A stretch of DNA of 54,231 nucleotides. Source: Ideonella paludis. GTDB lineage: Bacteria; Pseudomonadota; Gammaproteobacteria; Burkholderiales; Burkholderiaceae_C. How positions within the stretch are numbered: the first letter of the stretch is position 1; each line of letters begins with the position of its first letter. The stretch spans positions 1 to 54,231 of the forward strand of contig NZ_JAGQDG010000011.1 in NCBI RefSeq assembly GCF_018069865.1, read 5' to 3'. Position numbers and translations under genes: made by a program. The notes beneath the pieces are model-generated. The model had not been told where the DNA came from, ran no database searches, and saw nothing but the letters and a program-made list of their open reading frames with translations. Below, one piece after another: positions 14,222 through 51,086 of this stretch.

Positions 14222-14246
14222 ACAACCATAGAGCAAAGAGACAACG

Positions 14247-24493: not shown

Positions 24494-24494
24494 G

Positions 24495-24531: not shown

Positions 24532-24552
24532 GGCGTACATTGAAACACAAGC

Positions 24553-24690: not shown

Positions 24691-24718
24691 GGGAACCATC
24701 GCTTGTGCCGCAGCAAGG

Positions 24719-25249
24719 CTGCTTGGCCATTTTGTTGGCCACTGCTTTGAGACCGGTACTGACACTGCGGTGTGCCTCCAGCTCCAGCCAGAACTCGCGC
24801 GCTGGTCTTGCTGCTGAGCTCGATGCAGTTGCTTGGTCAAGATCAAACGGAGCGTAGTCCGGAGCGTCGCCCATGGCGGCGTTGGGCCGCCAGTGCATTG
24901 GCAGCCTGTCGTACACCGGTGCGAGCGTGAACCGCCCCCTGCGAATGCCCTCAAGGTCAACCATGAGTCCAAGATTGCCGCAGTGCATGGCCGTGTTGCC
25001 GATGAACTGACCGAAGGCCATCAGCGCGGCCGCGCGATCGACCTCGAGTGTGCTCAGCCGGCGTTGGCGTGCCAAGGCGCTGGCCGGGACAAAGTCCAAC
25101 TCGACGTGAACGAGCTCGCCCGCCAAAAAGGTCAAGAGACCGAACGCCCGGACGCTAACGCCCTCACCCGTCCGCTACAGCCGCTGCGGGGCCGGATTGC
25201 CGCGAATCAGTTGGGGAAGTCCGTATCGCGTGGCTCTTGCCTGTAGCTG
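24719..25249 (-). pseudogene. HipA-like (YjjJ-type) C-terminal relic
   Basis: The minus strand encodes the C-terminal half of a second, different HipA family protein: FGQFIGNTAMHCGNLGLMVD (the catalytic-loop region) and GRFTLAPVYDRLPMHWRPN, ending about VANKMAKQ. The upstream continuation (25136-25249) is in another frame and has stops. The N-terminal two thirds are missing, and the 3' edge coincides with an IS21 fragment. In the YjjJ-type proteins known to me, the loop reads GNSDMHxGNL; here it is GNTAMHCGNL. Confidence 0.65.
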
Positions 25250-26123: not shown

Positions 26124-27242
26124 TCACAGATTTGGCGGCGCAACCTCGACAGTACTCAGCACGCCGCCTTCATTGAGCAGCGACAGCAAATCGTTGTGCC
26201 GCGGCGCCGAGCGCATATAGGTGTCGTGAAAGACCTTCGCGAGGAATTCGGGCCGGCCACGCTCATAGAAGGCCAGGAGGGCGAATGTGTATTCGCGCCG
26301 ATTCACGCAAGTGAAGGTGAATGGCGCCAAGGAGTGCTTCAGCAGCGGGATGTTCATGCACAGGCGCGACGTGCGCTTGTTGCCATCCATGAATGGCTGC
26401 AGGTAGGAGATCATCGCCATCGTGAAGAGCGACTGCTCAAACGGGTCTTCGATGCGCGCCGCCTTTTCGCAAAACGCTGTCGTCTCCTCGTCCAGTTGCT
26501 GGGGAACACTGATGGGCCGATATGTGCTCTCAATGACGTGGACAGGAGCGAGCCGCAGGCGGCGCTCGTCTGCGGGGTTACCCAGTAGGCTACGGCTCAA
26601 CCTTTGATGAACCTCGAGCAGCGTGGGTCGCGAGAGGTCGAGATCGGCTCGGTGATCGCAGATGTACTGGATAGCCGTCTTGTGGTTGGAAACGATGAGG
26701 AACTCCTGCTCCGACATCCCTTCCGGGCGTTCTCCGAGTTCGACAAGACGCTTGGTGTCGAGCCAGGTGATGCGCACGTCCTCGAGCCGACTCGACGCAT
26801 ACGACAGGTCAATGACGAGACTGTTCATGACGCAGCGGTAGGACGTGTCGTTCGTTGTTGCGTCAGCGCGGGCAATGCTCAAAAGAGCCTTTGCTTGCTC
26901 CGGACTCAGCCAGCGGGTCACATTCGGCTCGTAGGCCTGCAGAACGGCGGGGTTGTACGGAGAAAGCGCGCGCGTGGCTGGAGGCTGGCTAAGCTCCCAG
27001 CGGATGAACGGCTCCGAGTTGCAATCGAGACGATATCGACGATTGCGCGTGTTGCCCCGGGCCTCAACGAGCCCATCGCCCGTCATGTCATGAAGGGCTC
27101 GGAATGCCGTCGTGCGGTCGACCTGAAGCACCTCCGCGACGTCGGTCGCGGAGACCCACTCGGACTCGGTCTGTCGGGACAGCTCGTGGTATTGGTCGAG
27201 CAGGACTCTGACGATATCGTCCTGGCGCGAAGAGGTGGTCAT
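26124..27242 (-). CDS. Fic-domain protein with N-terminal winged HTH and altered active site
   Basis: A 372-residue two-domain protein. Residues about 1-75 form a winged helix (EWVSATDVAEVLQVDRTTAF). The Fic core follows, with the motif YLQPFMDGNKRTSRL near residue 285. The usual HPFxxGNGR histidine, the base for AMP transfer, is Gln here, and the second Gly of GNGR is Lys. A helix SYASSRLEDV (about 148) resembles the (S/T)xxxE(G/N) inhibitory motif with Asp last. This QPF-DGNKR variant occurs in a recognised subgroup of Fic proteins whose chemistry is unclear. The ATG at 27242 is followed upstream by GTTGCA repeats that could be its operator. It is monocistronic. Confidence 0.8.
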   Translation of the reverse strand: MTTSSRQDDIVRVLLDQYHELSRQTESEWVSATDVAEVLQVDRTTAFRALHDMTGDGLVEARGNTRNRRYRLDCNSEPFIRWELSQPPATRALSPYNPAVLQAYEPNVTRWLSPEQAKALLSIARADATTNDTSYRCVMNSLVIDLSYASSRLEDVRITWLDTKRLVELGERPEGMSEQEFLIVSNHKTAIQYICDHRADLDLSRPTLLEVHQRLSRSLLGNPADERRLRLAPVHVIESTYRPISVPQQLDEETTAFCEKAARIEDPFEQSLFTMAMISYLQPFMDGNKRTSRLCMNIPLLKHSLAPFTFTCVNRREYTFALLAFYERGRPEFLAKVFHDTYMRSAPRHNDLLSLLNEGGVLSTVEVAPPNL

Positions 27243-30243: not shown

Positions 30244-30567
30244 ATGAAAGGTTCGGAATTTAACCTTGCGACGCCCCAGGAGATCGCCCGAGAGATCGGG
30301 GCTCGGTTGCGTGTTCAGCGCCTGCAGCAGTCATTGACGCAGGATGAACTGGCGGCGCGCGCAGCCGTGTCCGCGAGCGCACTAAAGACACTGGAGGCCA
30401 CGGGCAAGAGCACCATCGAGACGCTCGTGCGCGTGGCTGGCGCCTTGGGCCTGCAGGCAGACTTTGCTCAACTGTTCTCACCGAAGGTTGTATCCAGCAT
30501 CGCGGACCTTGAACGCCTTGAACGCGCGCAACAACGTCTGCGTGCGCCGCGCGGGAAGTCCCCGTGA
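30244..30567 (+). CDS. hipB: HipB-like antitoxin/repressor (module 2)
   Basis: A 107-residue Cro/cI-type HTH protein (QSLTQDELAARAAVSASALK; FSPKVVSSIADLERLERAQ tail). ATG at 30244 has AGGTAGG about ten bases upstream. It overlaps the downstream hipA by four bases (GTGA). It is not closely similar to the module 1 HipB, so the two modules were acquired separately. Confidence 0.88.
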   Translation: MKGSEFNLATPQEIAREIGARLRVQRLQQSLTQDELAARAAVSASALKTLEATGKSTIETLVRVAGALGLQADFAQLFSPKVVSSIADLERLERAQQRLRAPRGKSP

Positions 30568-31823
30568 AGAAGTTGGACGTCATCTTTCGCGGTTGGGGGC
30601 AAAACCACGTCCTTGGGGTTCTGGCCGACGTCGACGGCCAGGTTCACTTTGCCTACTCGTCCGGTGCGATCGAGCGAGGCATCGAGCACTCTCCGCACCA
30701 GCTCAAGCTTGCGCCTGGCACGCAAACGGGCTTCCCGCGACACCTCCACGGTCTGCCGGGTTTCATCAGCGACGCCTTGCCCGATGGCTGGGGCATCTTG
30801 CTGATGGACCGCATGTTCAAGCAGGCAGGCCGGGATGCGGCCACCTTGTCGCCGCTTGATCGCCTGAGCTTTATCGGCGAACGCGCGATGGGCGCGCTCG
30901 CTTTCAGGCCGAGCGTTGACTTCAAGCAGACACACCAAGACCTCACACTGCTAGAGCTCGCTCAAGCCTCTCGGGAGTTCATGGAGGACCAAGACACGCC
31001 GGCACTCAAGATCCTCGCGATGGTAGGCGGCGCTCCTCACGGAACAAGCCCCAAGGCGCTCGTGCAGTACGACGCATTGTCAGGGCGCATCAGTTCGCGC
31101 GACGATGCGCCGGGTGAGCCGTGGCTTGTGAAATTCAATGCAGCCAACGAACACAAGGAGGTGTGCGCCATCGAGCAGGTGTACGCCGACATGGCGCGTG
31201 CCAGTGGCATCGACATGCCCGAGTCGCGGCAGTTTGACCTCAGCAAGAACCTGGCCGCCTTTGGCGTGAAGCGTTTTGACCGTGAGCGTGGACTGCGCGT
31301 GCCGGTCCAGTCCTTCGCAGGAGCCTGGCACGCGAACTTTCGTGAACCGAGCGTCGACTACGTCACCGTGCTGCGGCTGACACGGCTGTTTACGCGCGAC
31401 GAGCGTGAGGTGCTGAAGGCGTATCAGCAGGCGGTCTTCAACGTCGTGTTCAACAACCAGGACGATCACGCCAAGAACATCGCTTTCCGGATGGACGAGC
31501 AGATGCGTTGGCGCTTGTCGCCCGCCTACGATCTAACGTTTGCGCGGGGCCCTCGCGGACAGCATCAGACTTCGGTTGCTGGAGCGGGTGTGCCAACGCG
31601 CGCTGACTTGCTGCGCCTAGCAGGCGACGGTGGTGTGAATCGAAAGGCGGCCGAAGCGATCATTGATCGCATCTGCGCGCAGGCTTCCACACTGACTCAA
31701 GCGCTCAAAGATGCAACTATCCGCGCAGCGACGGTGCAAGACATTGCGAGGACGGTCAACCTGAATGTCAAGCGATGCGCCGTACCGCCGGCAGCTCCAG
31801 ATCCGTCAGCGATCATTCACTGA
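30564..31823 (+). CDS. hipA: HipA-family kinase toxin (module 2)
   Basis: A 419-residue HipA-type kinase. FISDALPDGWGILLMDRMF (about 70-88) is the N-terminal subdomain motif, GGAPHGTSPKALV (about 155) is the Gly-rich loop, VFNNQDDHAKNIAFRMD (about 300) is the catalytic loop with Asp and Asn, and LSPAYDLTFA carries the metal-binding Asp. All key residues are present, so the toxin is probably active. The GTG start overlaps hipB. In contrast to module 1 it reads rightward. Confidence 0.88.
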   Translation: MKKLDVIFRGWGQNHVLGVLADVDGQVHFAYSSGAIERGIEHSPHQLKLAPGTQTGFPRHLHGLPGFISDALPDGWGILLMDRMFKQAGRDAATLSPLDRLSFIGERAMGALAFRPSVDFKQTHQDLTLLELAQASREFMEDQDTPALKILAMVGGAPHGTSPKALVQYDALSGRISSRDDAPGEPWLVKFNAANEHKEVCAIEQVYADMARASGIDMPESRQFDLSKNLAAFGVKRFDRERGLRVPVQSFAGAWHANFREPSVDYVTVLRLTRLFTRDEREVLKAYQQAVFNVVFNNQDDHAKNIAFRMDEQMRWRLSPAYDLTFARGPRGQHQTSVAGAGVPTRADLLRLAGDGGVNRKAAEAIIDRICAQASTLTQALKDATIRAATVQDIARTVNLNVKRCAVPPAAPDPSAIIH

Positions 31824-35294: not shown

Positions 35295-37901
35295 TCAATC
35301 CCGAGGCGAAAAATCTGGCGCATTTTCGTTGACGATACGCGCGAGCGCTGAAATCTCTGGGTCGTCACCATGGCTCGACGGCGGGATAACGACGCCGTGC
35401 AACTGCGCCCGCAAGTCGTCCCATCGGCGGCGCAGCACCGCCCAGTTGTGCTCGTCGTAGGTGCCCTTAAAGATCACTGGCAGGATTTCGATGCGCGGCA
35501 CCTCGCCACGGCTTTCCGCCGCCTGGCGCTCCGCGTCGATCAGCAACCGTTCCCAGTGACTGTCCAGTCGATCCACGCGGCCAATTTGCTGCTCCACCAC
35601 GCCAGGGTTCCATTCGGGGTGCAGCAGAACGACAGTCCTGCAAGCCCGGTGCAGGTTCAGTCCCTCGCGGCCGACGACCGATTGCGCGACCAGCACGCGC
35701 GGAAAGCTGTTGTTGCGGTTGAAACCCAACTGCAGCAACCGCCGCGTCGAGGGCGGCGTCTTGCCGTACATGAGGCGTGCGAAGCCGCCTTCACGCCGGC
35801 CGTACTCCTCGTTCAGCCGCTCGGCGACCCGATTCCATAGTCGCTCAGCCTCGCCGTCATCGAGCGCGCCGTCGCCGTTCTCGTCGCCCTCGCTGCGCTC
35901 GAGCGTAGCTTCGACGATGCGCCGGAACTCCGCCGCCCAGACTTCCGGCGATTCCTCCTTGGGATCGAGCATCTCAGCTAGTGCACGCGCTACGACCGGA
36001 ACGTCGCCGGGGCACTGCCGAAATGCCTCGAATAGCCGCGACAGCGGCCCTTCCCACGGCTCGGACGCGAGCCCCCGCTCCAGCAGGCCGACGAGGCCCT
36101 CGCGCAGCTTGCGTCGCTGATCTTCCACTGCCTCGTACTGGACGGCCAGCCGTTGGCCAATACCATTCAGGCCGTCGTCTCTGAACAGCCCCAATTGCCG
36201 GCTGGCGGCCAACACAGCAGGTTCATCCTCTGCCGGAATCACCGCCTGCGCCCAGGGCCTCTCTTCCTTCAGCGCCAGCAGCATCTGCCGGGCGTTCAGC
36301 AGAGAGACCAGCGCGCGCATGGGCCGTGTGTAGCGGCCGAACACCAGCACCTTCTCGCCTGCGCAATGGACGGCCTCGATGGCACGCACGGCAGCCTGCA
36401 GTCCGGGATGCTCCATTAGCGCGTCCTGGCCATCACCGCCTGTGACGCTGTCGCGCATCACCCCCAACCACCAGTCCACACGTTGTGCACGCTTTTCGTC
36501 CGCGGCAGCAGGTGCCACACCTTCGGCGTTGCCGGCCACGTCGCGCTGCGTCGCGTCTATGGCCCCGTCCAGTTCGAGTTGCAGCTTGTCCTCCTCAGCG
36601 TCCAAGTGGCAGCGATCCAGCAGTTCATTGACGCCGTGGCCGCTGCCCAGCGTCAGGCGCAGCCGCTGCGCGCGCGGGTCAAGCCCGCCGGCCGCGGTAA
36701 GGGACAAGGCCTCGGCTGCGCAGACTGCGCGCCGCCACCGCAAGTTCAAGTCGTCGGGCCGGACCTCGATGGCCGACTCCCTCCGGTAAGCGTGCAGCGG
36801 CTCCCCGGTCAGCGCGTGGAAGCGTCGTACCTGCTCGCTCTCGCGCTTGTCACGCCGCAGCAGGTAAGGATCCAAAGAAGCCTTGAATCCGGCGGCGGCC
36901 TGCGCGAACGTCAGGCGACGTTCCTCACTCACGGGCAGTTCCTGCACGTTACGGCATGCGTCGACGTATTGGTCGATTGCCCGAGCAGTCTCTTGCGTCT
37001 CGGCACCAATACGCCTCAGGACATCTACCCACTGGCGGGCATCCAGTTCGACCGGGGTAGCTGTCAGAGCGAGGCGGCGCGCGTCGGGCGAGGCCACCGC
37101 GACCTTCTCGAGCAGCCGGGCCAGTCCGGACGCGTCGCCGCGGCTCTTGTGCGCCTCGTCGACCACGATCAGGTCGAACAGCCCGAGTCCGAGCCCGACC
37201 GCGCCCTCAAGGGCGTGGCGGAATTTGCCCTGCCGGCCATATTGCTTGGCCTCCAACACACCGGGCCAGAGCGTTTCTTCCAGGAGGCCGTCCAGGAACT
37301 CGGCGAGGTAGCCGCCCGTCTCGGCCGCGCGCAGAGCGATGTGCTCGGCCGCCGCACGGATAAGGGGGTCCTGCAGCAAAGGGTTGTCCAAGGAATTGGG
37401 CGGCAAGCGGTTGCGACGCACTTTGCGCCATCGCGCAAACAGTGCCGGCAACAGCGACCAGCGCCAGGGCTCCGCCTGGGCCCCGAGGCGCCAGTTGGTG
37501 AAGGCGTGGGAGAGCAGGACAACCGACTCGCACTCCCATGGTCGCGTCCGAGTGGCGGCCCATGCGTCCAAGTATTGCTGCAGGCTTCGCAGCAACGGGC
37601 TGCACCGCACGCCTCCGGCCGCGAGTTCGTCTCGCCACTGGAAACCGAGGCCAGGCGGTACCAGAACGACGGCACGGCCACCGGCCTGAACGACTGTACG
37701 AACCGTGGCTACAGCAATCCGTGTCTTGCCCATGCCGACCTCATCCGCGACGATCACGCCGTTGGATGGAAGCCGGCTCGCGACGGCCCGCAGGCTACGG
37801 CGCTGACCGCCATCGAGCTTCCAAGCAGAGCCCGCCACGTCGGGGGCGTGCGAGAGCTGGCGAAGCCCGTTGGCGACAGTCGGCCAGCCTCTGAACGTCA
37901 T
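35295..37901 (-). CDS. SNF2-type DEAH helicase/translocase (cassette gene 3)
   Basis: An 868-residue superfamily 2 ATPase. Motif I is ADEVGMGKTRIA (residues 52-63), motif II VVDEAHK (DEAH at 248-251), motif III LALTATP (about 275); the C-terminal RecA lobe has VLVFGRYTRPM, VAQSVVGREGLNLHRA (motif V) and QQIGRVDRLDS (motif VI). A long insertion lies between the lobes, with an acidic EGDENGDGALDDGEAE segment. The ATG at 37901 is chosen because it overlaps the stop of the PLD gene as ATGA. It probably moves along DNA to present it to its partners. DISARM also pairs a SNF2-like and a PLD protein, but its DrmA, DrmB and methylase are absent here. Confidence 0.85.
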   Translation of the reverse strand: MTFRGWPTVANGLRQLSHAPDVAGSAWKLDGGQRRSLRAVASRLPSNGVIVADEVGMGKTRIAVATVRTVVQAGGRAVVLVPPGLGFQWRDELAAGGVRCSPLLRSLQQYLDAWAATRTRPWECESVVLLSHAFTNWRLGAQAEPWRWSLLPALFARWRKVRRNRLPPNSLDNPLLQDPLIRAAAEHIALRAAETGGYLAEFLDGLLEETLWPGVLEAKQYGRQGKFRHALEGAVGLGLGLFDLIVVDEAHKSRGDASGLARLLEKVAVASPDARRLALTATPVELDARQWVDVLRRIGAETQETARAIDQYVDACRNVQELPVSEERRLTFAQAAAGFKASLDPYLLRRDKRESEQVRRFHALTGEPLHAYRRESAIEVRPDDLNLRWRRAVCAAEALSLTAAGGLDPRAQRLRLTLGSGHGVNELLDRCHLDAEEDKLQLELDGAIDATQRDVAGNAEGVAPAAADEKRAQRVDWWLGVMRDSVTGGDGQDALMEHPGLQAAVRAIEAVHCAGEKVLVFGRYTRPMRALVSLLNARQMLLALKEERPWAQAVIPAEDEPAVLAASRQLGLFRDDGLNGIGQRLAVQYEAVEDQRRKLREGLVGLLERGLASEPWEGPLSRLFEAFRQCPGDVPVVARALAEMLDPKEESPEVWAAEFRRIVEATLERSEGDENGDGALDDGEAERLWNRVAERLNEEYGRREGGFARLMYGKTPPSTRRLLQLGFNRNNSFPRVLVAQSVVGREGLNLHRACRTVVLLHPEWNPGVVEQQIGRVDRLDSHWERLLIDAERQAAESRGEVPRIEILPVIFKGTYDEHNWAVLRRRWDDLRAQLHGVVIPPSSHGDDPEISALARIVNENAPDFSPRD

Positions 37902-39871
37902 GACATCCCCCGAAACGATTCGAGCCCACCAAGCCCCCAGGCGGCGGCCACACGCGCGAGTGCGGCTTCGTAAAGCTCGGCAGATTCGAGGCCTCCTTGT
38001 CCGCACGCATAATCAGGGCGCGACGCATCGATCCGCAGCACTTCAAGCGGGTCCAGCCCTAAGCGTAGGAACTCCGTCAGCCCCTTGCTGCCCGCTGCCC
38101 GGAACAGAACTTCCTCGAGACGCACACACCAGAACGGCCAGTCCGACTCGCTCACCATGGTCTGCCGCTGCGCAATCTCCTCAAGCTGCCGCATCATGGT
38201 CCGAACCGGCGACGAGGCAGCTTGGCGCTGGGCATCGGGCTGCCGTGGCGGGGGCGCTCCCGTATCTGCGGCGCCTTGGAACGGTTCGCCCTCGTCGCCG
38301 TCGCCTTCATCGTCCACGCGTGCGGGGAAAGCCATCAAGTGGGCGGCCATGTCCGCGAGGTCGAGGGGAGGCGCTTCGCCCGCGGCCACCCGCCCGAGTT
38401 CATCGACCACAGGCACTGACGCTCGCCTATGCCCACCGTCCCAGCGCAGCGCGGCCTGCCGCGGCATAGTCCCGCGCCAGAGCCATCCCTCGCCCTCGCG
38501 AACGCAGGGCTCGCCGCCGGCATCGAGCACAATGGTGTCCGTAGGCGTCGGGGCGCTTCCGTTTGGAGGCACGAGCATGCCGGTGCCATCGGCGCATGGA
38601 CACCATTGCAGGAAGGCCAAGGGACCGGCGACGAAGGCAGGTGGCCTCGGCGGCATCGGCTCTCCAGTGGCAGGTGGCGCCTCGCTATAAAGCTGGCCCT
38701 CACCATTGCGCTGCAAAGGAACCAGCGATTCGACGGCCAGCATGCCTGGCAACGCGGACCAGGGCAGACGCGGAAACTCGAGGAACACCCCCACTTCGAA
38801 GTTGCCGTTACGTCCTGCGGAGTTCAGGAAGCCCGCCTCTGTGAGGTTGCCCGAACCGAGGTACAGCCAGGCGCTGGTGCAGGCCTCGGTCCGGCTGTTC
38901 GCGCTGAAGATGAACTTGGCGTGCAAGCTGCGCGGCGATCCGGCCCCGAACATCTGGTGCCGTGCCGGCGTTCGCACGCACCAGCCGGCCTCCTCGATGG
39001 CGACCATCGACGTCGCGACCGACTGGCAGGCCTGTTCGTTGACGTAGATGTCAACGCTAGCCGACCGCGTCAGCAGACCAAGATCGGTGACCTTCCTTAC
39101 GATCCCCTGCAGCACCGGGGGCACGCCGCCACCGGCGCCGCCCTCAAAGAAGCCCGATCCGAGCGCGAGAAGGTTGCGCCGCGTGGAGCCTGCGTGCTTG
39201 CGCAAGTAACCGACCAGGCCCTTCAGCAGGGACTGATGGCGATTATCGAAGATGCGCGGCTTCGCGGTCCCGGCCTGCCTGGCGCATAGCACAGCCCACG
39301 CCGCAAGCTGGCGCACGGCCAGTGAGGTATCGCTATTGCGGCCTGCTAGTTCGACGAGCGACCGGTCGTAGTGCTCGCCCAACCAAGCGAGTATGTCGCT
39401 CACCTTGGCTACGTCGGCGCAGCGCAGGGCCAGAGTCTCCTCGCCCAGCCCGAGTTCAGACTCATCGACGTCGAAGCACCAAGCGAGGTCCAAGCTGTCC
39501 TCCAGTGTCTGCTTCGTCCAATTACCTGTAGAGACGATGACCCGTAGACGCCAGCCTGTCGACTGACCCCGGAAGCCCAGAAGTGCTACCTTGGCGTGCA
39601 TAAGCCGGAACGCTTTGTCCAGCGGCGTGCGCAGCGGCAGGTCTGCAACGCCCGGCACATCGAGCACAGAGATATGCTCGTGGAACGGATCGAGCATCAA
39701 CCCAAGTACCAGTTGCCCTTGGCGAGCCCGCACACTTGCCGGCTTGCGCGTGAAGCGCTCGGCCGCCGCGTCGAGGAACCCCGCGTCTGCAGAGAAGCCG
39801 CAGGCCCAACCGAACAGGCCTTCGTAATCTTCGGGCGGCTCAAATAGGCGTAGCAGCGAAGGCGTACTCAT
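37898..39871 (-). CDS. Tdp1/PLD-like phosphodiesterase (cassette gene 2)
   Basis: A 657-residue protein with two HxK...N half-sites as in tyrosyl-DNA phosphodiesterase and phospholipase D: MHAKVALLGF (H92, K94) with STGNWT (N117), and SLHAKFIF (H317, K319) with LGSGNLTEAG (N342). This single-domain double-HxK layout suggests a nuclease or phosphodiesterase on DNA. The C-terminal 250 residues are unassigned and may bind the helicase. It overlaps both neighbours by four bases, so the three proteins are likely made in fixed ratio. The lack of the Asp of the classical HKD motif favours a Tdp1-like mechanism. Confidence 0.78.
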   Translation of the reverse strand: MSTPSLLRLFEPPEDYEGLFGWACGFSADAGFLDAAAERFTRKPASVRARQGQLVLGLMLDPFHEHISVLDVPGVADLPLRTPLDKAFRLMHAKVALLGFRGQSTGWRLRVIVSTGNWTKQTLEDSLDLAWCFDVDESELGLGEETLALRCADVAKVSDILAWLGEHYDRSLVELAGRNSDTSLAVRQLAAWAVLCARQAGTAKPRIFDNRHQSLLKGLVGYLRKHAGSTRRNLLALGSGFFEGGAGGGVPPVLQGIVRKVTDLGLLTRSASVDIYVNEQACQSVATSMVAIEEAGWCVRTPARHQMFGAGSPRSLHAKFIFSANSRTEACTSAWLYLGSGNLTEAGFLNSAGRNGNFEVGVFLEFPRLPWSALPGMLAVESLVPLQRNGEGQLYSEAPPATGEPMPPRPPAFVAGPLAFLQWCPCADGTGMLVPPNGSAPTPTDTIVLDAGGEPCVREGEGWLWRGTMPRQAALRWDGGHRRASVPVVDELGRVAAGEAPPLDLADMAAHLMAFPARVDDEGDGDEGEPFQGAADTGAPPPRQPDAQRQAASSPVRTMMRQLEEIAQRQTMVSESDWPFWCVRLEEVLFRAAGSKGLTEFLRLGLDPLEVLRIDASRPDYACGQGGLESAELYEAALARVAAAWGLGGLESFRGMS

Positions 39872-41202
39872 GTCGAGCCGTCCTGTGCAGCAAAACGCAT
39901 GTGCAGTTCGCCGAGCAATTCCAACTTCAGCAGGTAGAGGTTCTGTACCCTGAACGACATGCCTTCAGGCCAGCCGATCTCGCGGGCCACTTGCGCGCCG
40001 ACTTCCTCCATCGCCTCGCCAGCCGTATCCTCGGAATCCAATTCGCCCGCAGCGGCGGGCGCTGTGCCTCTGCGGAAGGCGGCTCCTGGCCGTAGGACGT
40101 TGCCAAACAACGCCACGACGCGGCCATCGCGCTGCACGAGGCTTCGTAGGACGGCCACTGGCTCCGCAGCGGCACAGGCTCTGCAGAAGTCGTTGGCATC
40201 CACGTCCTCGTGGGCCATACGCAGGAAAGCATCGGCAGCGATGCGCAAGGCCTCAACCTGTTCGCCGACCACCGCCACTGCATCGGCGAGGGTCAAGCGC
40301 TCGGCCGACGCATGGGCAATCCGTGATTCGACGGTGTCGAGCAGTTTCAGTGCCGCATCGCGAGCAAGCCACAGGCGCGCGCCCGCTTCGAGGTCCTTCC
40401 AATGTCGGTCGTCCTGTATTTCTGGCGGACGATCCAGCCAGGTCAGCGGCACGACTGGTGGGACACGCCGCAATCGATCGACCCACGCTAGTGCGGCGCG
40501 CCGCCGCGACTTCGCTTCCAACGTCTCATTCGCTCCACCGGCGCGGAGGCGCCCTTCAAGGTGCCCGAGTGCATCGCCGGGCAATGCTAGGCAGGGCGAA
40601 AGCCCGCGAACAACAGTGCCCGTCGTCACATTGACAGGCGAGCCTTGTACCCATTGCGACAAGTGCTCGGCCATCGAACGGTTCGAGGGCCGGCATTCAC
40701 CTAAGGCCGCGTCGAGGAAAGCGCGGCCTTCTGCGGTCGACTGCAGCGTGTTGAAGCGGCGGTTTGACGAAGTCGCAAACCCGAGAGGTACCAGCGCACT
40801 GCCGGCTGCCATGCGCATCGGCTGGGTCACATAGAAGCCGCGAGAGCGGAACCGTGAGTACAGAGGGCCTTGTTTCAGGTCGTGCTCACGGGGGAACTTG
40901 TTCCGCCCGCGTAGACGGGGATCCGACGCCCATCCTGTGTCGCGATACGCGAGCCAGCAGGCCAGGGCCTCTATGGCGTTGGCGCATTCCATCTTCGCGA
41001 CGGCATGTCCCTCCACAGCTTGGAGCTCAGAAACCCGCACGCCTAACAGGGCCAGCATCAACTGCTTGCCGAACCAGACGCCACCCAGGCCAGGCACTGA
41101 TAGCTCGTTGAACCGACGGACGGCGCCCGCAATGCCAAGCGACCGCAGCCGCCGAGACGAACCCACCGTGTCCGGACCCAAAATCCCGCAAAACAACTGC
41201 AT
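39868..41202 (-). CDS. Unknown protein, cassette gene 1
   Basis: A 444-residue protein with no domain I recognise. The ATG at 41202 (MQLFCGILGPDTVGSSRRL) is chosen over the one at 41220 because GGGAGG lies just upstream. Segments such as RFNELSVPGLGGVWFGKQLM near residue 30 and ECANAIEALACWLAYRD near 75 look conserved in character. It is soluble and helical with an acidic C-terminal third. First gene of the leftward three-gene operon, it overlaps the PLD gene (ATGA). By position it could be the sensor or adaptor of the cassette. Confidence 0.65.
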   Translation of the reverse strand: MQLFCGILGPDTVGSSRRLRSLGIAGAVRRFNELSVPGLGGVWFGKQLMLALLGVRVSELQAVEGHAVAKMECANAIEALACWLAYRDTGWASDPRLRGRNKFPREHDLKQGPLYSRFRSRGFYVTQPMRMAAGSALVPLGFATSSNRRFNTLQSTAEGRAFLDAALGECRPSNRSMAEHLSQWVQGSPVNVTTGTVVRGLSPCLALPGDALGHLEGRLRAGGANETLEAKSRRRAALAWVDRLRRVPPVVPLTWLDRPPEIQDDRHWKDLEAGARLWLARDAALKLLDTVESRIAHASAERLTLADAVAVVGEQVEALRIAADAFLRMAHEDVDANDFCRACAAAEPVAVLRSLVQRDGRVVALFGNVLRPGAAFRRGTAPAAAGELDSEDTAGEAMEEVGAQVAREIGWPEGMSFRVQNLYLLKLELLGELHMRFAAQDGST

Positions 41203-42996: not shown

Positions 42997-45030
42997 ATGG
43001 ATGTCTGGGACGGCTTGCTGGTGGTCTCTGCCTTCATGGCGGGTGTGACGGTGGTGCGTGGCCTGCAACAGAAGCGCCAAGGCACGGTGGCCTTGCTGCC
43101 TGCCACCCCCATGGAGCAGGTGGCCAGACCCGCCAACCAGATTGCGGTGATGAGCATGGCCGAGCTGGTGGACACAACCCGAACCGAGCGCCTGCTGCGT
43201 AGCTTGGAGCAGCGCACACGGTTCTCAAGGGCGATGTTCAATCGAGATTGCGGTTGCGTGCTGGAGGCATTGGCGGACTATGTGCAGATGCTGCCCGCCT
43301 CAGAGTGCCATCACCATGCCCAGCCGGGCGGACTGTGGACGCACTTGCTGGAAGTCGCCGATGCGGCCTTGACCTTTCGGGGTGGGATTGAGATGCCCCA
43401 AGGTGCCACCACCGAAGAGAGAAAACGCTTAGAGCACCGCTGGACTTACGCAGTGTTCTGCGCCGCGCTCTTGCATGACATTGGCAAGCCCGTCACCGAC
43501 TTGCGCGTCACCCTCTATGCGCATGACCCCCGCGCCGGGCGGCGCTGGGCGCCCCTGGCCGGGCCTATGCGCACCCACGGTGCCAGCCACTACAGCGTGG
43601 AGTTTGTGGAAGCGGCTGAGCGGGACTACCAAGCCCACCAGAAGCTGGCCGCCATGCTGCTGCACCAGTTTGTGCCGGCGCGTCTGGTGCGCTGGCTCAG
43701 TGAAGAAGGCGATGTGCTGAACCAGCTCTTGACCTACCTGAGTGCGGAGGCGGCCGACGGGCCACTGAGCGAGATCATCAAGCAGGCAGACAGCGATTCG
43801 GTGAGCCGCAACCTCATGCACGGCCCCCGCACCCGCTTTGCCAGTGCGCGCACCACCCCGCTGATCGAGCGGCTGATGCAGGCCTTGCGGCGCATGCTGC
43901 AAGACGGTGGCGTGTTGCCCCTGAACCGGCCCGGTGCGGCAGGCTGGGTGTTTGACGGCAGCGTGTGGTTTGTGTGTGCGCGCCTGGCCGACGAAGTGCG
44001 GGCCTATCTGCAACAGCATGAGAGCGGCCAAGGCCTGCCGGGCAAAGACAAGAACGACCGGCTGTTTGACACCTGGCAAGAGAGCGGCGCCTGCCTGCCC
44101 GCGCCCGATGGCGGCGCGGTGTGGCGCGTGTGGGTGCAGTGCGAATCCTGGCGCTCACCCGATGCTTTGACGGTGCTGCGCTTTCCGCTAGAGAAGCTCT
44201 ACCCGAGCCCTGCGGATTACCCCGCGCCGCTGCGCGGCCGCATCAGCACAGAGCCGCTGGGCGAAGACGCCGTCAGCCCACCTGCAGAGCCCAAGGCCCC
44301 AGTGGCACCACCCTCCCCCTTGCCGCCCTGGCAAGAGACAGAGGACAGCCCTGCCCTGCCGCCCGCAGCCGAGCCCGCCCCTACACCCGAGGAGGAACCC
44401 ATGCCCCAGATTGACCATGCCCTGCAGACCGCATCAGCCCAAGATGCCGATGACGGCCTGCTGCGCCCCCACGAGGCCGCATGCCTGGACCCTGACCCCC
44501 AACCCAGCACCCATAAGCCCGCCATGGCCACCACGCTGGGCAGCCCGCTGCGCCCGCACCAGCCCAGTGGCCCCAAGCCGGCCAAGGCGCCCACAGCGGC
44601 CGCAGAGGCCTTCATGGCCTGGGTGGCCGACGCAGTGGGCTCTGGCGCGCTGAAGTACAACGAGGACGGGGCATTGGTTCACTTTGCGGCCGAGGGCTGC
44701 TTGCTGTTGTCGCCCGAGATCTTCAAGCGCTTCATCGACGCCCGCCGCGATGATGAAAGCGGCCCCGTCCACTCCCTGCGGCAAAGCCATGGGGACAAGG
44801 CCTATGCCCGGCTGCAAAACGAGTTGGCCAAGTCGGGCTGGACTCGGCGCAATGGCGACGAGAACCTGCACTACTACGCCTTCACCAAGACGGATGGCTC
44901 GCTGTCTCGGGTGGTGAGCTGCTACCTGCTGCCTCAGCCTCAACTCTTCTGGAACCCCGTGCCCAGGGTGAATGAGCGCATCCGGGCGGTGACACGTGCC
45001 AAGAAGGCTAAGCCTGCACCGGCAGCGTGA
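42997..45030 (+). CDS. MobH-family conjugative relaxase (TraI_2/PFL_4751-like)
   Basis: A 677-residue relaxase of the HD-hydrolase (MobH) type used by integrative conjugative elements. The N-terminal metal site is in SECHHHAQPGGLWTHLLEVA (about 103-122) and ALLHDIGKPV (about 160). The central 430-530 stretch is Pro/Ala-rich and disordered. The C-terminal TraI_2_C domain begins near AFMAWVADAVGSGALKYNED and ends with LLPQPQLFWNP. It nicks oriT and pilots the strand. An N-terminal hydrophobic helix (LLVVSAFMAGVTVV) is present. It is followed after seven bases by traD. Confidence 0.88.
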   Translation: MDVWDGLLVVSAFMAGVTVVRGLQQKRQGTVALLPATPMEQVARPANQIAVMSMAELVDTTRTERLLRSLEQRTRFSRAMFNRDCGCVLEALADYVQMLPASECHHHAQPGGLWTHLLEVADAALTFRGGIEMPQGATTEERKRLEHRWTYAVFCAALLHDIGKPVTDLRVTLYAHDPRAGRRWAPLAGPMRTHGASHYSVEFVEAAERDYQAHQKLAAMLLHQFVPARLVRWLSEEGDVLNQLLTYLSAEAADGPLSEIIKQADSDSVSRNLMHGPRTRFASARTTPLIERLMQALRRMLQDGGVLPLNRPGAAGWVFDGSVWFVCARLADEVRAYLQQHESGQGLPGKDKNDRLFDTWQESGACLPAPDGGAVWRVWVQCESWRSPDALTVLRFPLEKLYPSPADYPAPLRGRISTEPLGEDAVSPPAEPKAPVAPPSPLPPWQETEDSPALPPAAEPAPTPEEEPMPQIDHALQTASAQDADDGLLRPHEAACLDPDPQPSTHKPAMATTLGSPLRPHQPSGPKPAKAPTAAAEAFMAWVADAVGSGALKYNEDGALVHFAAEGCLLLSPEIFKRFIDARRDDESGPVHSLRQSHGDKAYARLQNELAKSGWTRRNGDENLHYYAFTKTDGSLSRVVSCYLLPQPQLFWNPVPRVNERIRAVTRAKKAKPAPAA

Positions 45031-45037
45031 GTGAGCC

Positions 45038-47104
45038 ATGGCCGACAGCCTGAACAACGTCTATCGCTGGCCGCATGAGTTGGCCTCGGTGCTGGCCTGC
45101 GGCGTGGGGGCTGGCCTGCTGCTGATCCAAGCACCCATGTTCTTGCTGAGTCCCGCTCAGGGCCAAGTGGCGGCCTTGGCCCTGTGTGGCCTGGCCGCGC
45201 GGCGTTGGCACCAGGCGCAGCGCATCCTGCGCTATCGCCGGGCTGTGCGGCGCAGCAAGCCCTATGCACTGCTGCCGCACGAACTGCCCAGCTCGCCCCA
45301 AGCCGTGTTCTTGGGCAAGGGCTTTGAGTGGACAGCCGAACACACCCAACGCATGGTCTTGCTGGCCCAGCCGGAGAACGACCACCTGCGCCGCCCTTCG
45401 GCCCTGTACCAATGGGCTCGCAGACGCGAGCGCGAGGCCAACTGCCCCGCCTGGCTGCAGCGGTTGATTGGCTGGCCCCACTCCTTGAACCCGCTGCTGG
45501 CCATGCCCCCAGTGGGTGGCATGCCCGCCCTGCACGGCATGTCGATTGACGAGCAAGACGTGTGGACGCCCCTGGCCGAGCTGAACAACCACATGATGGT
45601 CTATGGCACCACCCGCGTGGGCAAGACGCGGCTAGCTCAAATCTTGATCGAGCAAGACATTCAACGCGGAGATGTGGTGATCGTCTTCGACCCCAAGGGC
45701 GATGTCGAGCTGCTGCTGGGCATGTACTCGGCAGCGCTGCGGGCTGGGCGGGAGGATGACTTCATGCTGTTCCACCTGGGCTTCCCCGAGGTCTCGGCCC
45801 GCTACAACCCGATTGGCAACTTTGAGCAAATCACCGAGGTGGCCACACGGGCCACAGGCCCCCTGCCCGACCAGGGTCAGTCTGCCGCCTTCAAGGCCTT
45901 TGCCTGGCGCTATGTGAACGTGATCGCCCGCGCCATGAGCGCGGTGGGCGAGCGGCCGGACTTCAGAAAAGTCTATGAGTACGGCGTGTCGGTGGACAAG
46001 CTGGGGGGCAAGTACCTGACCCAGTGGCTAGAGCGCCATGCGCCCGACTGGCACAGCCAGTTTGACCCCACTCCCACCAGAGAGCACAAGGAGCTGATCA
46101 CCCGGGCCGAGAAAAACGGACGCGACATTGAGGTGCTGATGATGATGGCCTTCTTCAAGCAGCAGGCCTACCAAGACCCGATTGCCGACGCCCTGGCCTC
46201 CATCTTGGCCAACGACCGCACCTACTTTGAGAAGCTGGTCAACTCGCTCTACCCCTTGCTGGAAAAGCTCACCAGCGGAGGCCTGGCGGACCTGATCTCC
46301 CCGCAGTACGACAGCACCACCGACCCCCGCCCTATCCTGGACTGGCTCTCGGTCATCAACCGGGGTGGCATCGTCTACTGCGGCTTTGACGCCCTGACCA
46401 TCCGCGACGCGGCCGAGGCCGTCAGCGCCTCCATGCTGGCCGACCTGACCAGCACGTTTGGGCGCATCTACAAACATGGCTCAGGCTACGGCATGCCCAA
46501 CCCAGAGCCCTTGCGGCGCGTGCGCCTGCATGCGGACGAGCTGAACGAGTTGATTGGCCCGGAGTTTGTGCAGGCCGCCAACAAGGGCGGCGGTGCAGGT
46601 TTGTTCATCACCGGCTACAGCCAGACGGCGCAAGACATTGAGGTCAAGGTGGGCACGCCGGCGGCGGCAGAGCAGTTGGGCGGCAACCTCAACTCGCTCA
46701 TCATGCTGCGGGTGGTGAATGCCGACACCGCCGCCAAGCTGACCGACCGGCTGGAAGAAGTGCGCGTGGCCACGCGCCTAGTGGCCAGCGGCGTGGCCGA
46801 CACCAATGACCCGGACCGGGTGGAAGACTTCTCTTCACGCAATGAAGACCGGATCAGCATGGAGAAAGTGCCCATGCTGGACCCGGCCTGGCTGATGAAG
46901 CTGCCCAAAGGCCAAGCCTTTGCGCTGCTGGAGGGTGGGCGCTTGATGAAGATCCGAATCCCCCTGCCCTTGCCGCATGTGGACGCCCGCACCCCTGCCA
47001 ATTGGCAAGCCATGCTGGAACACATGCGCATCCAACATGCCCAGCACACAGACCGCAACCCCGAGCAAGGCCTGACAGTGGAAGGCGCTGGCAGTGGCTA
47101 CTGA
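45038..47104 (+). CDS. traD: Type IV coupling protein TraD (ICE type)
   Basis: A 688-residue VirD4/TraD-like ATPase that hands the relaxosome to the mating channel. N-terminal membrane helices (ELASVLACGVGAGLLLIQAP; about 10-60) are followed by Walker A VYGTTRVGKTRLA (about 188-200), VIVFDPKGDVELL and the Walker B region RLHADELNELIG (about 500). Size and order match the SXT/TOL-subfamily TraD of ICEs. Its last ten bases overlap the next gene. Confidence 0.9.
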   Translation: MADSLNNVYRWPHELASVLACGVGAGLLLIQAPMFLLSPAQGQVAALALCGLAARRWHQAQRILRYRRAVRRSKPYALLPHELPSSPQAVFLGKGFEWTAEHTQRMVLLAQPENDHLRRPSALYQWARRREREANCPAWLQRLIGWPHSLNPLLAMPPVGGMPALHGMSIDEQDVWTPLAELNNHMMVYGTTRVGKTRLAQILIEQDIQRGDVVIVFDPKGDVELLLGMYSAALRAGREDDFMLFHLGFPEVSARYNPIGNFEQITEVATRATGPLPDQGQSAAFKAFAWRYVNVIARAMSAVGERPDFRKVYEYGVSVDKLGGKYLTQWLERHAPDWHSQFDPTPTREHKELITRAEKNGRDIEVLMMMAFFKQQAYQDPIADALASILANDRTYFEKLVNSLYPLLEKLTSGGLADLISPQYDSTTDPRPILDWLSVINRGGIVYCGFDALTIRDAAEAVSASMLADLTSTFGRIYKHGSGYGMPNPEPLRRVRLHADELNELIGPEFVQAANKGGGAGLFITGYSQTAQDIEVKVGTPAAAEQLGGNLNSLIMLRVVNADTAAKLTDRLEEVRVATRLVASGVADTNDPDRVEDFSSRNEDRISMEKVPMLDPAWLMKLPKGQAFALLEGGRLMKIRIPLPLPHVDARTPANWQAMLEHMRIQHAQHTDRNPEQGLTVEGAGSGY

Positions 47105-47846
47105 CCAAAGCAGCATCGGCCGCAGCGTCTTGCTGCGCCAGTTCCTCTGGCCTTTCATCACCGGCTTCTGGGTGGTCTTTGTAGGGGTGTGCATCTGGGG
47201 CGGTGGTGCCCTGGCCCAACTGGCCTGGGCCGAGCAGCGCGCACCTGACGACCCCTTGGCCTACCAAATCCAACAACTGCAACTTGAGCTGGATGCCCTG
47301 GCCACCCTTACCCCCGTCATCCTGCAGCCCAGCGAGTTGGCTCAGGCCATCGGCGACGCCGTCTACAACACCGCCGTCTGGGCCGCCACCGGCACCTTGC
47401 GCACGCTGATGAACATCCCCGGCCTGTGGCGCGAGAACGCGGCTAACGACTTCATCCGCCACCACCCAGACCCTGGGGGCACCTATGCGCAAAAGATGTT
47501 CCAAGACACTGGCCACTCATGGCAGCGCCTGGTGGTGGCCAACTACACCCTGGCCACACGCACTGCCATGTTCCTGGCCATGCTGCCCCTGCTGGCCCTC
47601 ACAACAGCCATCGGCCTGACCGATGGCCTCATGGCCCGCGCCCGCCGCCGCGCCAACGCAGGGCGCGAGTCCGCCAGCCTCTACCACCGCGCCAAGCTGG
47701 GAAGCACGGGGCTGCTGATCACCAGCTACTTGGCTTGCTTGGCTGTGCCATCGCTGACGCAGCCTGTGTGGGTGCTGGTGCCCGTGGCTGTTGGCGTGGG
47801 TGGGCTGGTGAGGGTGCAGGGGGGGTACTTTAAGAAGTACCTTTAG
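47094..47846 (+). CDS. ICE membrane protein, PFL_4697 family
   Basis: A 250-residue membrane protein with helices near the N-terminus (FLWPFITGFWVVFVGVCIWG), the middle (AMFLAMLPLLALTTAIGLTD) and the C-terminus (SYLACLAVPSLTQPVWVLVP), as in the integrating conjugative element membrane proteins that follow TraD (TIGR03747 type). The GTG start at 47094 overlaps traD. The next ICE genes expected in this order are absent; a CRISPR array begins 138 bases downstream. Confidence 0.85.
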   Translation: MATDQSSIGRSVLLRQFLWPFITGFWVVFVGVCIWGGGALAQLAWAEQRAPDDPLAYQIQQLQLELDALATLTPVILQPSELAQAIGDAVYNTAVWAATGTLRTLMNIPGLWRENAANDFIRHHPDPGGTYAQKMFQDTGHSWQRLVVANYTLATRTAMFLAMLPLLALTTAIGLTDGLMARARRRANAGRESASLYHRAKLGSTGLLITSYLACLAVPSLTQPVWVLVPVAVGVGGLVRVQGGYFKKYL

Positions 47847-47984: not shown

Positions 47985-48849
47985 TTTCGAAGCTGCCTGT
48001 GCGGCAGTGAAGTTCACCTATCCAGAGGATCAACAAGCCAAGTGTTTCTGAGCTGCCTGTGCGGCAGTGAAGAGCGTCAGGCGCATAGGGGTCGATGGGC
48101 GCGATTTCTGAGCTGCCTGTGCGGCAGTGAAGTGGCTGGTGGATGACGGTGTGGCGCGCAGTGTTTTCTGAGCTGCCTGTGCGGCAGTGAAGGAGTGCCT
48201 CCGCCACTTCCGGCACTGGTTCAATTTCTGAGCTGCCTGTGCGGCAGTGAAGAGTGCTAGGTGCTGAAGCCTGACGATTAGCTTTTTCTGAGCTGCCTGT
48301 GCGGCAGTGAAGAGGCGCAAAGACTGCCGCTCCCATAAGTGCTATTTCTGAGCTGCCTGTGCGGCAGTGAAGCCCAATACAGGCGGAAACTTGCCCCACT
48401 GATACTTCTGAGCTGCCTGTGCGGCAGTGAAATCGTTCTTCATGGGCAGGCCAAAGGTGCTGGATTTCTGAGCTGCCTGTGCGGCAGTGAAGACGAGTAG
48501 GCCCCCACCAGGCGCGAACCTTGAGTTTCTGAGCTGCCTGTGCGGCAGTGAAGGTAGACGTTGCCGGGCAGCAGTGGCTGCAGCATTTCTGAGCTGCCTG
48601 TGCGGCAGTGAAGTTCGGCATGCCAGCGAACAGCACTACCTCATATTTCTGAGCTGCCTGTGCGGCAGTGAAGATCCATCCTTGAGTAATACAGCGAGCG
48701 GGTTTTTTCTGAGCTGCCTGTGCGGCAGTGAAGTGTGCTTTGATCTGCGGAGGGGGGAAGTCAAATTTCTGAGCTGCCTGTGCGGCAGTGAAGCATCGCA
48801 CCCGAGGCCCCAGCACACACCCACTTTTCTGAGCTGCCTGTGCGGCAGT
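47985..48849 (-). CRISPR. Type I-F CRISPR array, leader-distal part
   Basis: Fifteen 28-bp repeats, the last cut at 48849 by an IS, with 32-base spacers (one of 33). On the minus strand the repeat has the Cas6f hairpin core CTGCCGCACAGGCAG and ends CTCAGAAA, matching the I-F type repeat (consensus ends CTAAGAAA). Repeat starts run every 60 bases from 47985 to 48465, then from 48526. The first repeat (47985) is degenerate (GA for TG at positions 5-6 of the plus-strand form) and the one at 48405 has altered first and last bases. A degenerate terminal repeat marks the leader-distal end, so transcription is leftward. Confidence 0.97.
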
Positions 48850-48912
48850 TGTCAAGCGACATCGAGAACTGACCCCCTGACGACATTCAGAATTGACCCC
48901 CTGGGTTGATGA

Positions 48913-49719
48913 TTAGGTTGCCGCGGCAATTGTGGTGGTGTCTCGCACCAGACCGGACTTGCGTTTGGCCTTGAGTCGGTAGCTGTCGCCGCGGATCGTG
49001 ACGACGTGGCTGTGGTGCAGCAGGCGGTCCAGGATGGCGGTGGCGACCACCGCATCGCCGAAGACGCCGCCCCACTCAGCGACAGATCGGTTGCTCGTCA
49101 CCAGCGTGGCGCCGCGCTCATAGCGACGGCTCACGAGCTGGAAGAACAGGTGCGCCGCGTTGGCCTCGAAGGGCAGGTAGCCCAGCTCGTCGATGACCAG
49201 CAGCTTGGGCTTGGCCAGGTGCGTCAGCCTCTCCTCGAGACGCCCTTCAGTGTGGGCCCGCACAAGCTGCGTCACGATGCTGGTCGCTGAGGCGAACAGC
49301 GTTGAGTAGCCGCGCAGGATGGCTTCGCGCCCGAGCGCGACTGCCAGGTGCGTCTTGCCCACGCCCGGCGGCCCCAGCAGCAGAACGGTGTCGCCGTTAG
49401 CCACCCAGCGTGAGGTCGCCAGCTCGCGCACCAGCTTCGGGTCGATGGAGGGCTGGGCCTCGAACTCGAAGCCCTCCAGTGTGCGCACGCAGGGGAACTT
49501 GGCGATGGACATGCCCATCTGGATGCGGCGCTCGTCCTTGCGGGCCACCTCGGCAGCGCACAGCAGGTGCAGCACCTCGCGCAGCGTCATGTCCGCACGC
49601 GCGGCCTGCTCCAGCAGCGTGTCGAGCTGGTCGCGAATCGCGGTCAGCTTCAGCCGCGTAAGCATGGCGTCGAGCTCGTCCTCTGGCATGGCTTGCTCGG
49701 TCTTCTTGACGCGGGCCAT
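48913..49719 (-). CDS. istB: IS21 helper ATPase IstB
   Basis: A 268-residue AAA+ ATPase: Walker A LLLGPPGVGKTHLA (about residue 113), Walker B LLVIDELGYLPFE, and GATLVTSNRS (sensor I). The ATG at 49719 overlaps the istA stop (TGATG). It assists target choice for IstA. Confidence 0.94.
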   Translation of the reverse strand: MARVKKTEQAMPEDELDAMLTRLKLTAIRDQLDTLLEQAARADMTLREVLHLLCAAEVARKDERRIQMGMSIAKFPCVRTLEGFEFEAQPSIDPKLVRELATSRWVANGDTVLLLGPPGVGKTHLAVALGREAILRGYSTLFASATSIVTQLVRAHTEGRLEERLTHLAKPKLLVIDELGYLPFEANAAHLFFQLVSRRYERGATLVTSNRSVAEWGGVFGDAVVATAILDRLLHHSHVVTIRGDSYRLKAKRKSGLVRDTTTIAAAT

Positions 49720-51014
49720 CACCAGCCTCCCCCGACCAGCGCCTCGTACTCGACGAGGTCGCGTTGCAGCTCGGCCGGTGGTGCAGCGGGCGGTACCAGC
49801 CGGGTCGAGCCGACGAACTGGCTGCCCACAATGCCGGCCAGGTGTCCGCGCTCGATGACGCTGCTGCGACGCAAGGAGCTCTGGGCGTGACGGGCCACTT
49901 CCTGGCCAGCGTACAGCACCTGCACCTCGCGGTCGGCCACGACGACGCTGACCTGCTCGCCGATGAGCTTCCAGGGCACGGAGTAGCGGTTGGTGTCGAG
50001 TTCGATGCAGGCGTCGGTGTGCACGCGGCGCACGAGCTCGCGCACCTGCAAGAACGGAGCCTTGGACGGCAGCGGGCGCAGCGCCGGGCGCTCATCGCGC
50101 TCGAACCGCTCGATGGGCGGCTCACCGGTCGTGCCGTGCACGCGCACATCGGCCACCTCGCGCATCCAGCGGTCCAGGTGGGCCTGCAGCGCGTCCAGGC
50201 TGGGGAAGGTGTGCCCGGCGATGGCATTGCGCTTGACGTAGCCGACCCCACGCTCGTCCTTACCCTTGGTCTGGGCCCGGTACGGTGCGCAGGCCCGAGG
50301 CGTCACGCCCCAGTAGCGGCAGAACGAGCGGAAGCGATCGTTGAGCTTGACCTCGCGAGTCTGGCGGTTGTGCTGCTCGACGAGGGCGCGGGCGTTGTCG
50401 ATGAGCACCTCGTGCGTCACACCACCGAAGTGCCGGAATGCGCCTTCCAGGCCGAGCAGCCAGGCCGACTGACGTTCATGCAGGCTCAGCAGCACGTAGG
50501 TGCGTCGGCTGTAGCCCAGCGTCGCGACGAACAAGAAGACGCGCGTGAGCTCCTCGCCAACCTGCACGTGCGTGCTGCCGAAGTCCACCTGCAGCTGCAG
50601 CCCTGGCGCTGTCTCAAAGCGCACATGGGCGACTGCCTGAGCCCGCAGTCCCACCCGCATCGGCGCCACGGCGCGCTGCACGGTGCGCAGGCTCACGGCG
50701 ATACCGAACTCACGCTGCAACTCCTGGCGCACCACGTCGGCGTTGCCCTTGTGCTGGCGCAGGCGCTGCTCCAGCCACGTCAGATGCGGCGCCAATGCGC
50801 TGGCCCGACCTGACACGTCCATCGGCTTCCAGCCTCCGCTGCGCAGGTACTCCCGTACCGTGTTGCGGCTGCAGCCTAGTTCCTTGCTGATGCGCTTCGC
50901 TCCCCATCCTTGCGCCTTTAGCGCCAGCATCCTCTGCACCTCCTGTGGCGCCAACATCGTCTGTCTTCCTCCAACGTCCATGACGCCGGAAGGATCGGTC
51001 ACAACGTCCGTCAT
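49719..51014 (-). CDS. istA: IS21 transposase IstA
   Basis: A 431-residue DDE transposase. N-terminal HTH (MLALKAQGWGAKRISKELGC), catalytic core with the first Asp in LQLQVDFGSTHVQVGEEL, second Asp in HEVLIDNARALV and Glu in GKDERGVGYVKR. A strong ribosome site AGAAGGAGGT lies upstream of the ATG at 51014. Degraded partial copies of its 5' end occur at 22404-22783 and 24553-24690. Confidence 0.94.
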   Translation of the reverse strand: MTDVVTDPSGVMDVGGRQTMLAPQEVQRMLALKAQGWGAKRISKELGCSRNTVREYLRSGGWKPMDVSGRASALAPHLTWLEQRLRQHKGNADVVRQELQREFGIAVSLRTVQRAVAPMRVGLRAQAVAHVRFETAPGLQLQVDFGSTHVQVGEELTRVFLFVATLGYSRRTYVLLSLHERQSAWLLGLEGAFRHFGGVTHEVLIDNARALVEQHNRQTREVKLNDRFRSFCRYWGVTPRACAPYRAQTKGKDERGVGYVKRNAIAGHTFPSLDALQAHLDRWMREVADVRVHGTTGEPPIERFERDERPALRPLPSKAPFLQVRELVRRVHTDACIELDTNRYSVPWKLIGEQVSVVVADREVQVLYAGQEVARHAQSSLRRSSVIERGHLAGIVGSQFVGSTRLVPPAAPPAELQRDLVEYEALVGGGW

Positions 51015-51086
51015 GCGGACCTCCTTCTAGTGAAGGGGGTCAGTTCTGGATGTCGTCAGGGGGGCAGTATTGGATGTCGCCTGACA

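Follow-up and report, generated by a model that had tools for sequence, protein, structure and literature searches.

The window analysed here, a stretch of 54,231 nucleotides of Ideonella paludis (RefSeq assembly GCF_018069865.1, contig NZ_JAGQDG010000011.1), carries a cassette of three leftward genes encoding an orphan protein (hereafter P3), a PLD/Tdp1-like phosphodiesterase and an SNF2-type SF2 ATPase, which is read here, with a probability of roughly 0.7, as a system directed against mobile elements, probably phages, of the Azaca kind and with a novel A subunit. A sequence-only reading of the same DNA had already proposed a poorly described defence system and had named DISARM as the nearest comparison. 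The first proposal gains from defence-like genes near several relatives of the trio, the defence function itself being predicted from sequence; the second has to be given up, as the closest known system appears to be Azaca, judged by the sole PADLOC match of the PLD protein, which is to ZacB, and by the agreeing order of genes.

P3, PLD and SNF2 form a real unit. The four-base overlaps at both junctions, the coordinates and the lengths reported by the sequence-only reading were all confirmed (Table 1), with an additional in-frame ATG at 41220 that would extend P3 to 450 residues. A four-base ATG overlap is possible at the P3/PLD junction in nine and at the PLD/SNF2 junction in eight of 14 loci (14 of the 18 strong loci introduced below being covered). 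The three genes are under purifying selection, the ratio of nonsynonymous to synonymous substitution rates (dN/dS) between the window and a Variovorax locus (L007) being 0.177, 0.178 and 0.151, and the distances between loci agree from one protein to the next (r 0.963-0.976 for pairwise distances across 12 loci; 0 of 2000 permutations in each case), figures from which no species tree has been subtracted. Since dN/dS lies at 0.15-0.18 and the gene order is kept in distant bacteria, the trio is beyond chance.

Co-occurrence, singled out earlier as a check, is borne out by the distribution of the family. P3 was found in 4 of 100 relatives and in 8 of 399 genomes of the family, six of them with strong matches (both counts include the own genome, G000), in three of 398 genomes of the phylum, with strong matches in G000 and G963, and in seven of 72,556 plasmids, three family members used as queries returning the identical seven. 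The reciprocal search with PLD returned the same seven of 72,556 plasmids and, among the 399 family genomes, exactly the six with strong P3 matches. A P3 pattern scan of genome contigs yielded one Variovorax locus; none of 50,697 phage records contained P3, E. coli genomes gave no near match, and pattern scans of viral contigs with alignment A1 and the PLD alignment A2 found nothing, while an A5 pattern scan of viral-metagenome contigs returned a single contig (L060), whose PLD had escaped the A2 scan. Altogether, 18 distinct strong P3 loci were collected (the window, L007-L011, L021-L030, L051 and L060), and profile scans recovered the order P3-PLD-SNF2 in 15 of them, the remaining three running out near contig ends. 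In L028 and L029, the PLD frame ends 124 and 324 bases short of the contig end, respectively, the remainder of a PLD gene, with one stop, being located on a different contig of the latter genome (G377); in L051, where P3 and PLD are complete, it is the SNF2 frame that ends 119 bases short of the contig end. These incomplete sets would be accounted for by a break in the assembly or by an insertion. Damage within complete sets is seen in Variovorax L007, where P3 (9989-11335) has one in-frame stop at codon 240, reflecting either decay or a sequencing error, with PLD and SNF2 open, and in Novosphingobium L025, where PLD is split by an insertion. In Paracoccus L022, P3 and PLD share one frame (an open reading frame, ORF, of 1004 residues); a gene fusion was considered and rejected, as, set against L060, the joint resembles a frame shift near the P3 end, and this case was left out of the evidence. 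Weak P3 matches in G159 (L032), G165 (L031) and G850 (L052), with E 1e-5 to 5e-4, were excluded from the 18; no PLD or SNF2 partner was present in the stretches read there.

A second trio resides in the own genome (L011, G000:C11:977529-983645), with all three frames open. Its P3 is 43% identical to that of the window, so the two trios are not recent duplicates. The contig ends close to the L011 trio, in what by eye resembles an IS21 IstB fragment. On L060, which is filed as viral, a seven-gene run AAA-WYL-ARH-P3-PLD-SNF2-PD-(D/E)XK (ARH, ADP-ribosylglycohydrolase) extends from 3123 to 16196; the contig could be a prophage, a plasmid or mis-filed host DNA.

The PLD protein carries two HxK...N half-sites in one chain, as had been noticed from the letters alone, and their residues (Table 1) are invariant in 12 of 12 aligned family members, as is E359. 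Two such half-sites per chain are the pattern of Tdp1. Pfam returned PLDc_2 below threshold and Tyr-DNA_phospho at 15.5 bits, under the cut-off of 22; in PADLOC, ZacB was the sole match at E up to 1 (39 bits, E 1e-10). For the SNF2 protein, the earlier observation of intact SF2 motifs holds for motifs I, II, III, V and VI of the window protein, and the motifs are kept with a few substitutions across 12 aligned members. The apparent lack of motif I in Desulfosarcina L027 is a product of the late annotated start used for the alignment, the 966-residue ORF of this locus covering SNF2 profile positions 8-880. The protein exceeds the Pfam helicase cut-offs and has weak matches to PDC-M27C, DrmD, DpdE, ZacC and RapA, its scores lying far under the curated NCBIfam cut-offs of DrmD, DpdE and RapA. 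PDC-M27 was weighed as a candidate for the real relative; a search for PDC-M27C at E 1e-60 gave no match in 274 genomes, and none in the control genomes either, so that this result does not count against it.

P3, which the sequence-only reading could match to nothing, still belongs to no recognisable family by profile search. PADLOC, NCBIfam and PDB gave no match at E up to 1, PHROGs none at E up to 0.1, and Pfam a single chance-level line (E 0.26); 15 P3 family members produced only single-member Pfam lines at E 0.03 or worse, and the family profile against PDB two lines only (E 0.21 and 0.96). A winged helix in residues 119-170 was a by-eye impression that found no support from Pfam or PDB profiles, and a MarR match to P3 (E 0.21) covers a different region; a winged helix is not claimed. 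The PADLOC release used was version 2.0.0 of 2023, and a later name for the trio may exist. A literature search recognised no paper describing the P3-PLD-SNF2 trio, within a partial coverage that left most subscription papers and bioRxiv outside, so that absence from print is not shown.

Azaca is reportedly described in Millman 2022 as the discovery paper, and to our knowledge its mode of action is unsettled. The PADLOC models ZacA (PDLC03828), ZacB (PDLC03829) and ZacC (PDLC03830) are taken by us to be its parts. Two papers (PMC10952713, PMC12278908) attribute to Azaca a PLD-like domain together with ZacC, a helicase of the SF1/SF2 type, the wording of the latter paper being Azaca (ZacC). For comparison, ZacA loci were compiled from six genomes (seven of the 369 searched matched, one weak match being dropped) and from a further nine plasmid records out of 43 with a ZacA match; the own genome gave none in a ZacA search. 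All three ZacA proteins tested against Pfam are DUF6361, and 13 of the 15 Azaca loci show the order DUF6361-PLD-helicase, L045 being unclear and L055/L070 having no annotated helicase; in L056 the ZacA frame is annotated as three pieces. Thus Azaca and the P3 trio have in common the order of an A protein without known function, a PLD protein and a helicase. The A subunits are of similar length (388-428 residues in Azaca, 395-444 in the P3 family), as are ZacB, mostly 591-622 residues, and the PLD proteins of the trio, 599-677. ZacB, likewise of the PLD type, shows a pair of HxK half-sites in 11 of 12 proteins examined and is homologous to the window PLD (hhalign 96.6%, E 6e-10); ZacC is an SF2 helicase related to the SNF2 protein (98.4%, E 7e-15). 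The similarity to both is only remote.

The two versions also draw on the same kinds of accessory genes. A PD-(D/E)XK gene and a UvrD gene stand directly before DUF6361 in the Azaca plasmids L069-L072, for which wide flanks were at hand, and directly before P3 in L023-L026; in L022 and L060, a PD-(D/E)XK gene follows the SNF2 gene. Within the 5-kb flanks of the remaining Azaca plasmids, no such pair was present. The UvrD proteins of both sides are related (26-34% identity by BLASTP, hhalign 99.9%). Both versions can have an ADP-ribosylglycohydrolase nearby, Azaca in L042 and L045 and the P3 trio in L023, L026 and L060, with 42-44% identity between the L042 protein and those of the P3 side. In L021, L023, L026, L027, L028 and L060, genes for an AAA ATPase and a WYL protein flank the trio at its P3 end, with two AAA stretches in both loci tested (L021 and L027); the WYL gene of L027 and an AAA ATPase gene of L030 lie on the opposite strand. 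Two Azaca loci (L058 and L071) have annotated methylases in their vicinity. Because UvrD and ADP-ribosylglycohydrolases are large families, the shared additions argue for shared biology and not, taken alone, for common descent. As position, length, partners and kinds of add-on genes agree, P3 is best read as occupying the slot of ZacA. In the three rhizobial plasmids L070-L072, a ubiquitin-like set (multiubiquitin, ThiF adenylyltransferase, DUF6527) and a second UvrD gene lie directly upstream of the extended Azaca locus.

The environment of several relatives is in keeping with defence. In Haematobacter L024, the PD-(D/E)XK, UvrD, P3, PLD and SNF2 genes directly follow BREX pglZ/brxL, with an RT-Protease_XI gene downstream of the extended set. 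In Variovorax L007 the trio lies between PDC-M54A, upstream, and a PtuB-like gene, downstream; PDC-S27 is found near Desulfosarcina L027, a DrmD-like fragment near L008, a NERD-UvrD gene near Pantoea L021 and a weak PDC-S15 match near L011, whereas the sole neighbour scanned in L010 gave no PADLOC match. In these scans 7 of 10 proteins matched, one of them weakly, and then 2 of a second 10, eight of which were window proteins.

A number of observations weigh against an Azaca-type defence system. The neighbours scanned were picked by hand, so these match rates are no enrichment statistic, and the neighbours in L009-L011, few of which were scanned, look mostly ordinary by eye. For the SNF2 protein, several PADLOC models, among them PDC-M27C and DrmD, outscore ZacC, and ZacC, at 1043-1131 residues, is longer than the SNF2 proteins of the trio, at 846-914; hence the helicase by itself does not point to Azaca in particular. 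As to the accessory genes, the PD-(D/E)XK proteins of the two versions are only remotely related (hhalign 82.7%, BLASTP marginal), the WYL proteins are not detectably so (7.3%, for one Azaca sequence), and none of the AAA, WYL, ADP-ribosylglycohydrolase, PD-(D/E)XK and UvrD partners had a match at E 1e-8 in the window or in L007-L011. Finally, the A subunit is DUF6361 there and the orphan P3 here, with no detectable homology: P3 against ZacA gives 0.1% in hhalign, level with four negative controls (0.1-0.5%).

This last point also bears on the strongest alternative, that the trio is simply Azaca and P3 is a ZacA/DUF6361 protein diverged past sequence recognition. It is a serious contender to which somewhat less than an even chance is given: beyond the agreement in position, length, partners and kinds of accessory genes already described, the best hhalign path is collinear (3-292 against 15-282), and locally the two proteins match best in an LGLG...PG stretch close to each N-terminus. 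The score of that path, however, is 13.7, under the 21.3 of a control, P3 against ZacB; profile comparison, enlarged families included, gave no signal for P3 as a ZacA homologue, and neither P3 nor its relatives scanned matched a PADLOC model or DUF6361. Since the sequence of P3 shows no homology to ZacA, the trio is not filed as Azaca, although it would probably operate much as Azaca does.

A second explanation, DNA repair or mobile-element housekeeping, would have the Tdp1-like enzyme and the SNF2 remodeller clear protein-DNA adducts or assist in the maintenance of plasmids or integrative and conjugative elements. The HxK...N spacing, which is of the Tdp1 type, and the sub-threshold Tyr-DNA_phospho match fit this proposal, as do the seven PLD-carrying plasmids, four of them typed conjugative, and the position of the window copy beside a MobH relaxase gene. 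It is nevertheless unlikely, given that the genes are rare and patchy (strong matches in 6 of 399 family genomes), that two diverged copies exist in one genome, that defence genes lie near several relatives, that homology points to ZacB and ZacC, and that the chromosomal copies L009 and L010 have no mobile genes evident by eye. A DISARM-like system without DrmA and DrmB is very improbable and membership in DISARM was rejected: a PLD protein (DrmC in DISARM, reported dispensable in PMC9142583) and a helicase of related type (DrmD similarity 59-68 bits) are shared, yet the SNF2 protein of the trio scores 68 bits against a DrmD cut-off of 610, the PLD protein matches ZacB and not DrmC, the DrmA model matches the trio only through the helicase part of the SNF2 protein, at 30 bits, and a Pfam scan of 20 window proteins, a subset of the ORFs of the window, revealed neither DUF1998 nor a methylase.

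The remaining features of the window are compiled in Table 1. Genes for a TraI_2 relaxase (MobH), a TraD-like coupling protein and DUF4400 adjoin the trio, which suggests that an integrative or conjugative element carries it as cargo; they are not regarded as part of the system. The HipA and Fic genes lie on the opposite side, between metabolic genes and the trio. Of the neighbours listed by the sequence-only reading, two HipA proteins, a HipA-like one below the Pfam cut-off, Fic and the CRISPR array were recovered, whereas an AbiEi-like protein was not seen among the 20 proteins scanned, and neither was a cas gene. The repeats of the array correspond to Rfam CRISPR-DR4 (61 matches on the minus strand, with a spacing of mostly 60 bases), and a gap within it contains an IS21 IstAB pair.

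Table 1. Coordinates of the trio and of other features in the window.
Feature	Coordinates	Strand	Remarks
SNF2-type SF2 ATPase, 868 residues	35295-37901	-	DEVGMGKT, DEAHK, TATP, VGREGLN, QQIGRVDR
Overlap, PLD stop / SNF2 start	37898-37901	-	4 bases
PLD/Tdp1-like phosphodiesterase, 657 residues	37898-39871	-	H92/K94/N117 and H317/K319/N342; remote ZacB homologue
Overlap, P3 stop / PLD start	39868-39871	-	4 bases
P3, first gene, 444 residues	39868-41202	-	orphan protein; putatively in the slot of ZacA in Azaca
HipA	22803-24179	-	
Protein with sub-threshold HipA_C and HTH_31 matches	24176-25135		
Fic protein	26124-27242		SoFic-like in PADLOC
Direct repeats of 121 and 244 bases	28577-29234		copies 60-100% alike
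HipA	30564-31823	+	
TraI_2 (MobH relaxase), TraD-like coupling protein, DUF4400	42997-47846	+	mobile-element genes
CRISPR array	47985-53975		63 repeat matches at up to 3 mismatches; beyond the mobile genes
Gap in CRISPR array	48852-51128		
IS21 IstAB pair	48913-51014		within the gap

Returning to the reading as an Azaca-type system with a novel A subunit, a mechanism can be proposed in which we infer complex formation, DNA target, trigger, nuclease activity and the role of P3. The SNF2 protein would be an ATP-driven motor engaging foreign DNA at ends, forks or other aberrant structures, and P3 may act as an adaptor or sensor that ties the motor to the nuclease and decides when to fire. The two half-sites in one PLD chain should form a single Tdp1-like active site, with which the protein would then cut the DNA; where an AddBA-like pair (PD-(D/E)XK and UvrD) has been added, it might resect the resulting ends. 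Self-marking by methylation is not assumed, because no methylase was found among the window proteins scanned. Likened by description and not by sequence, two known systems offer parallels. In CglI and NgoAVII, according to PMC4267653, an R protein with a PLD domain and an N protein with a DEAD ATPase cut DNA jointly at the expense of ATP, the combination of PLD nuclease and SF2 ATPase being that of the trio; those systems differ in having a methylase and a B3 DNA-binding domain. Hachiman (HamAB), according to PMC12278908 a nuclease with a sensor helicase that responds to aberrant DNA, provides a possible working model, although it consists of two proteins, HamA and HamB.

Beyond the individual trio, it is tentatively proposed, at odds not far short of even, that PLD-SNF2 constitutes an immune chassis on which the A subunit can be exchanged, DUF6361 giving Azaca and P3 a second type, and that the same kinds of add-ons extend either. 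If this were true, the A subunit would set what is sensed and a swap would change the target, similar to the S subunit in type I restriction. In any case, an orphan family is defined whose genes accompany those of a nuclease-type enzyme and a motor, both in Pseudomonadota and on one desulfobacterial plasmid. P3 is thereby given a testable role, and a core of the Azaca type can apparently occur with a different-looking first subunit; a natural exchange of A subunits, if real, would offer a direct handle on how Azaca works.

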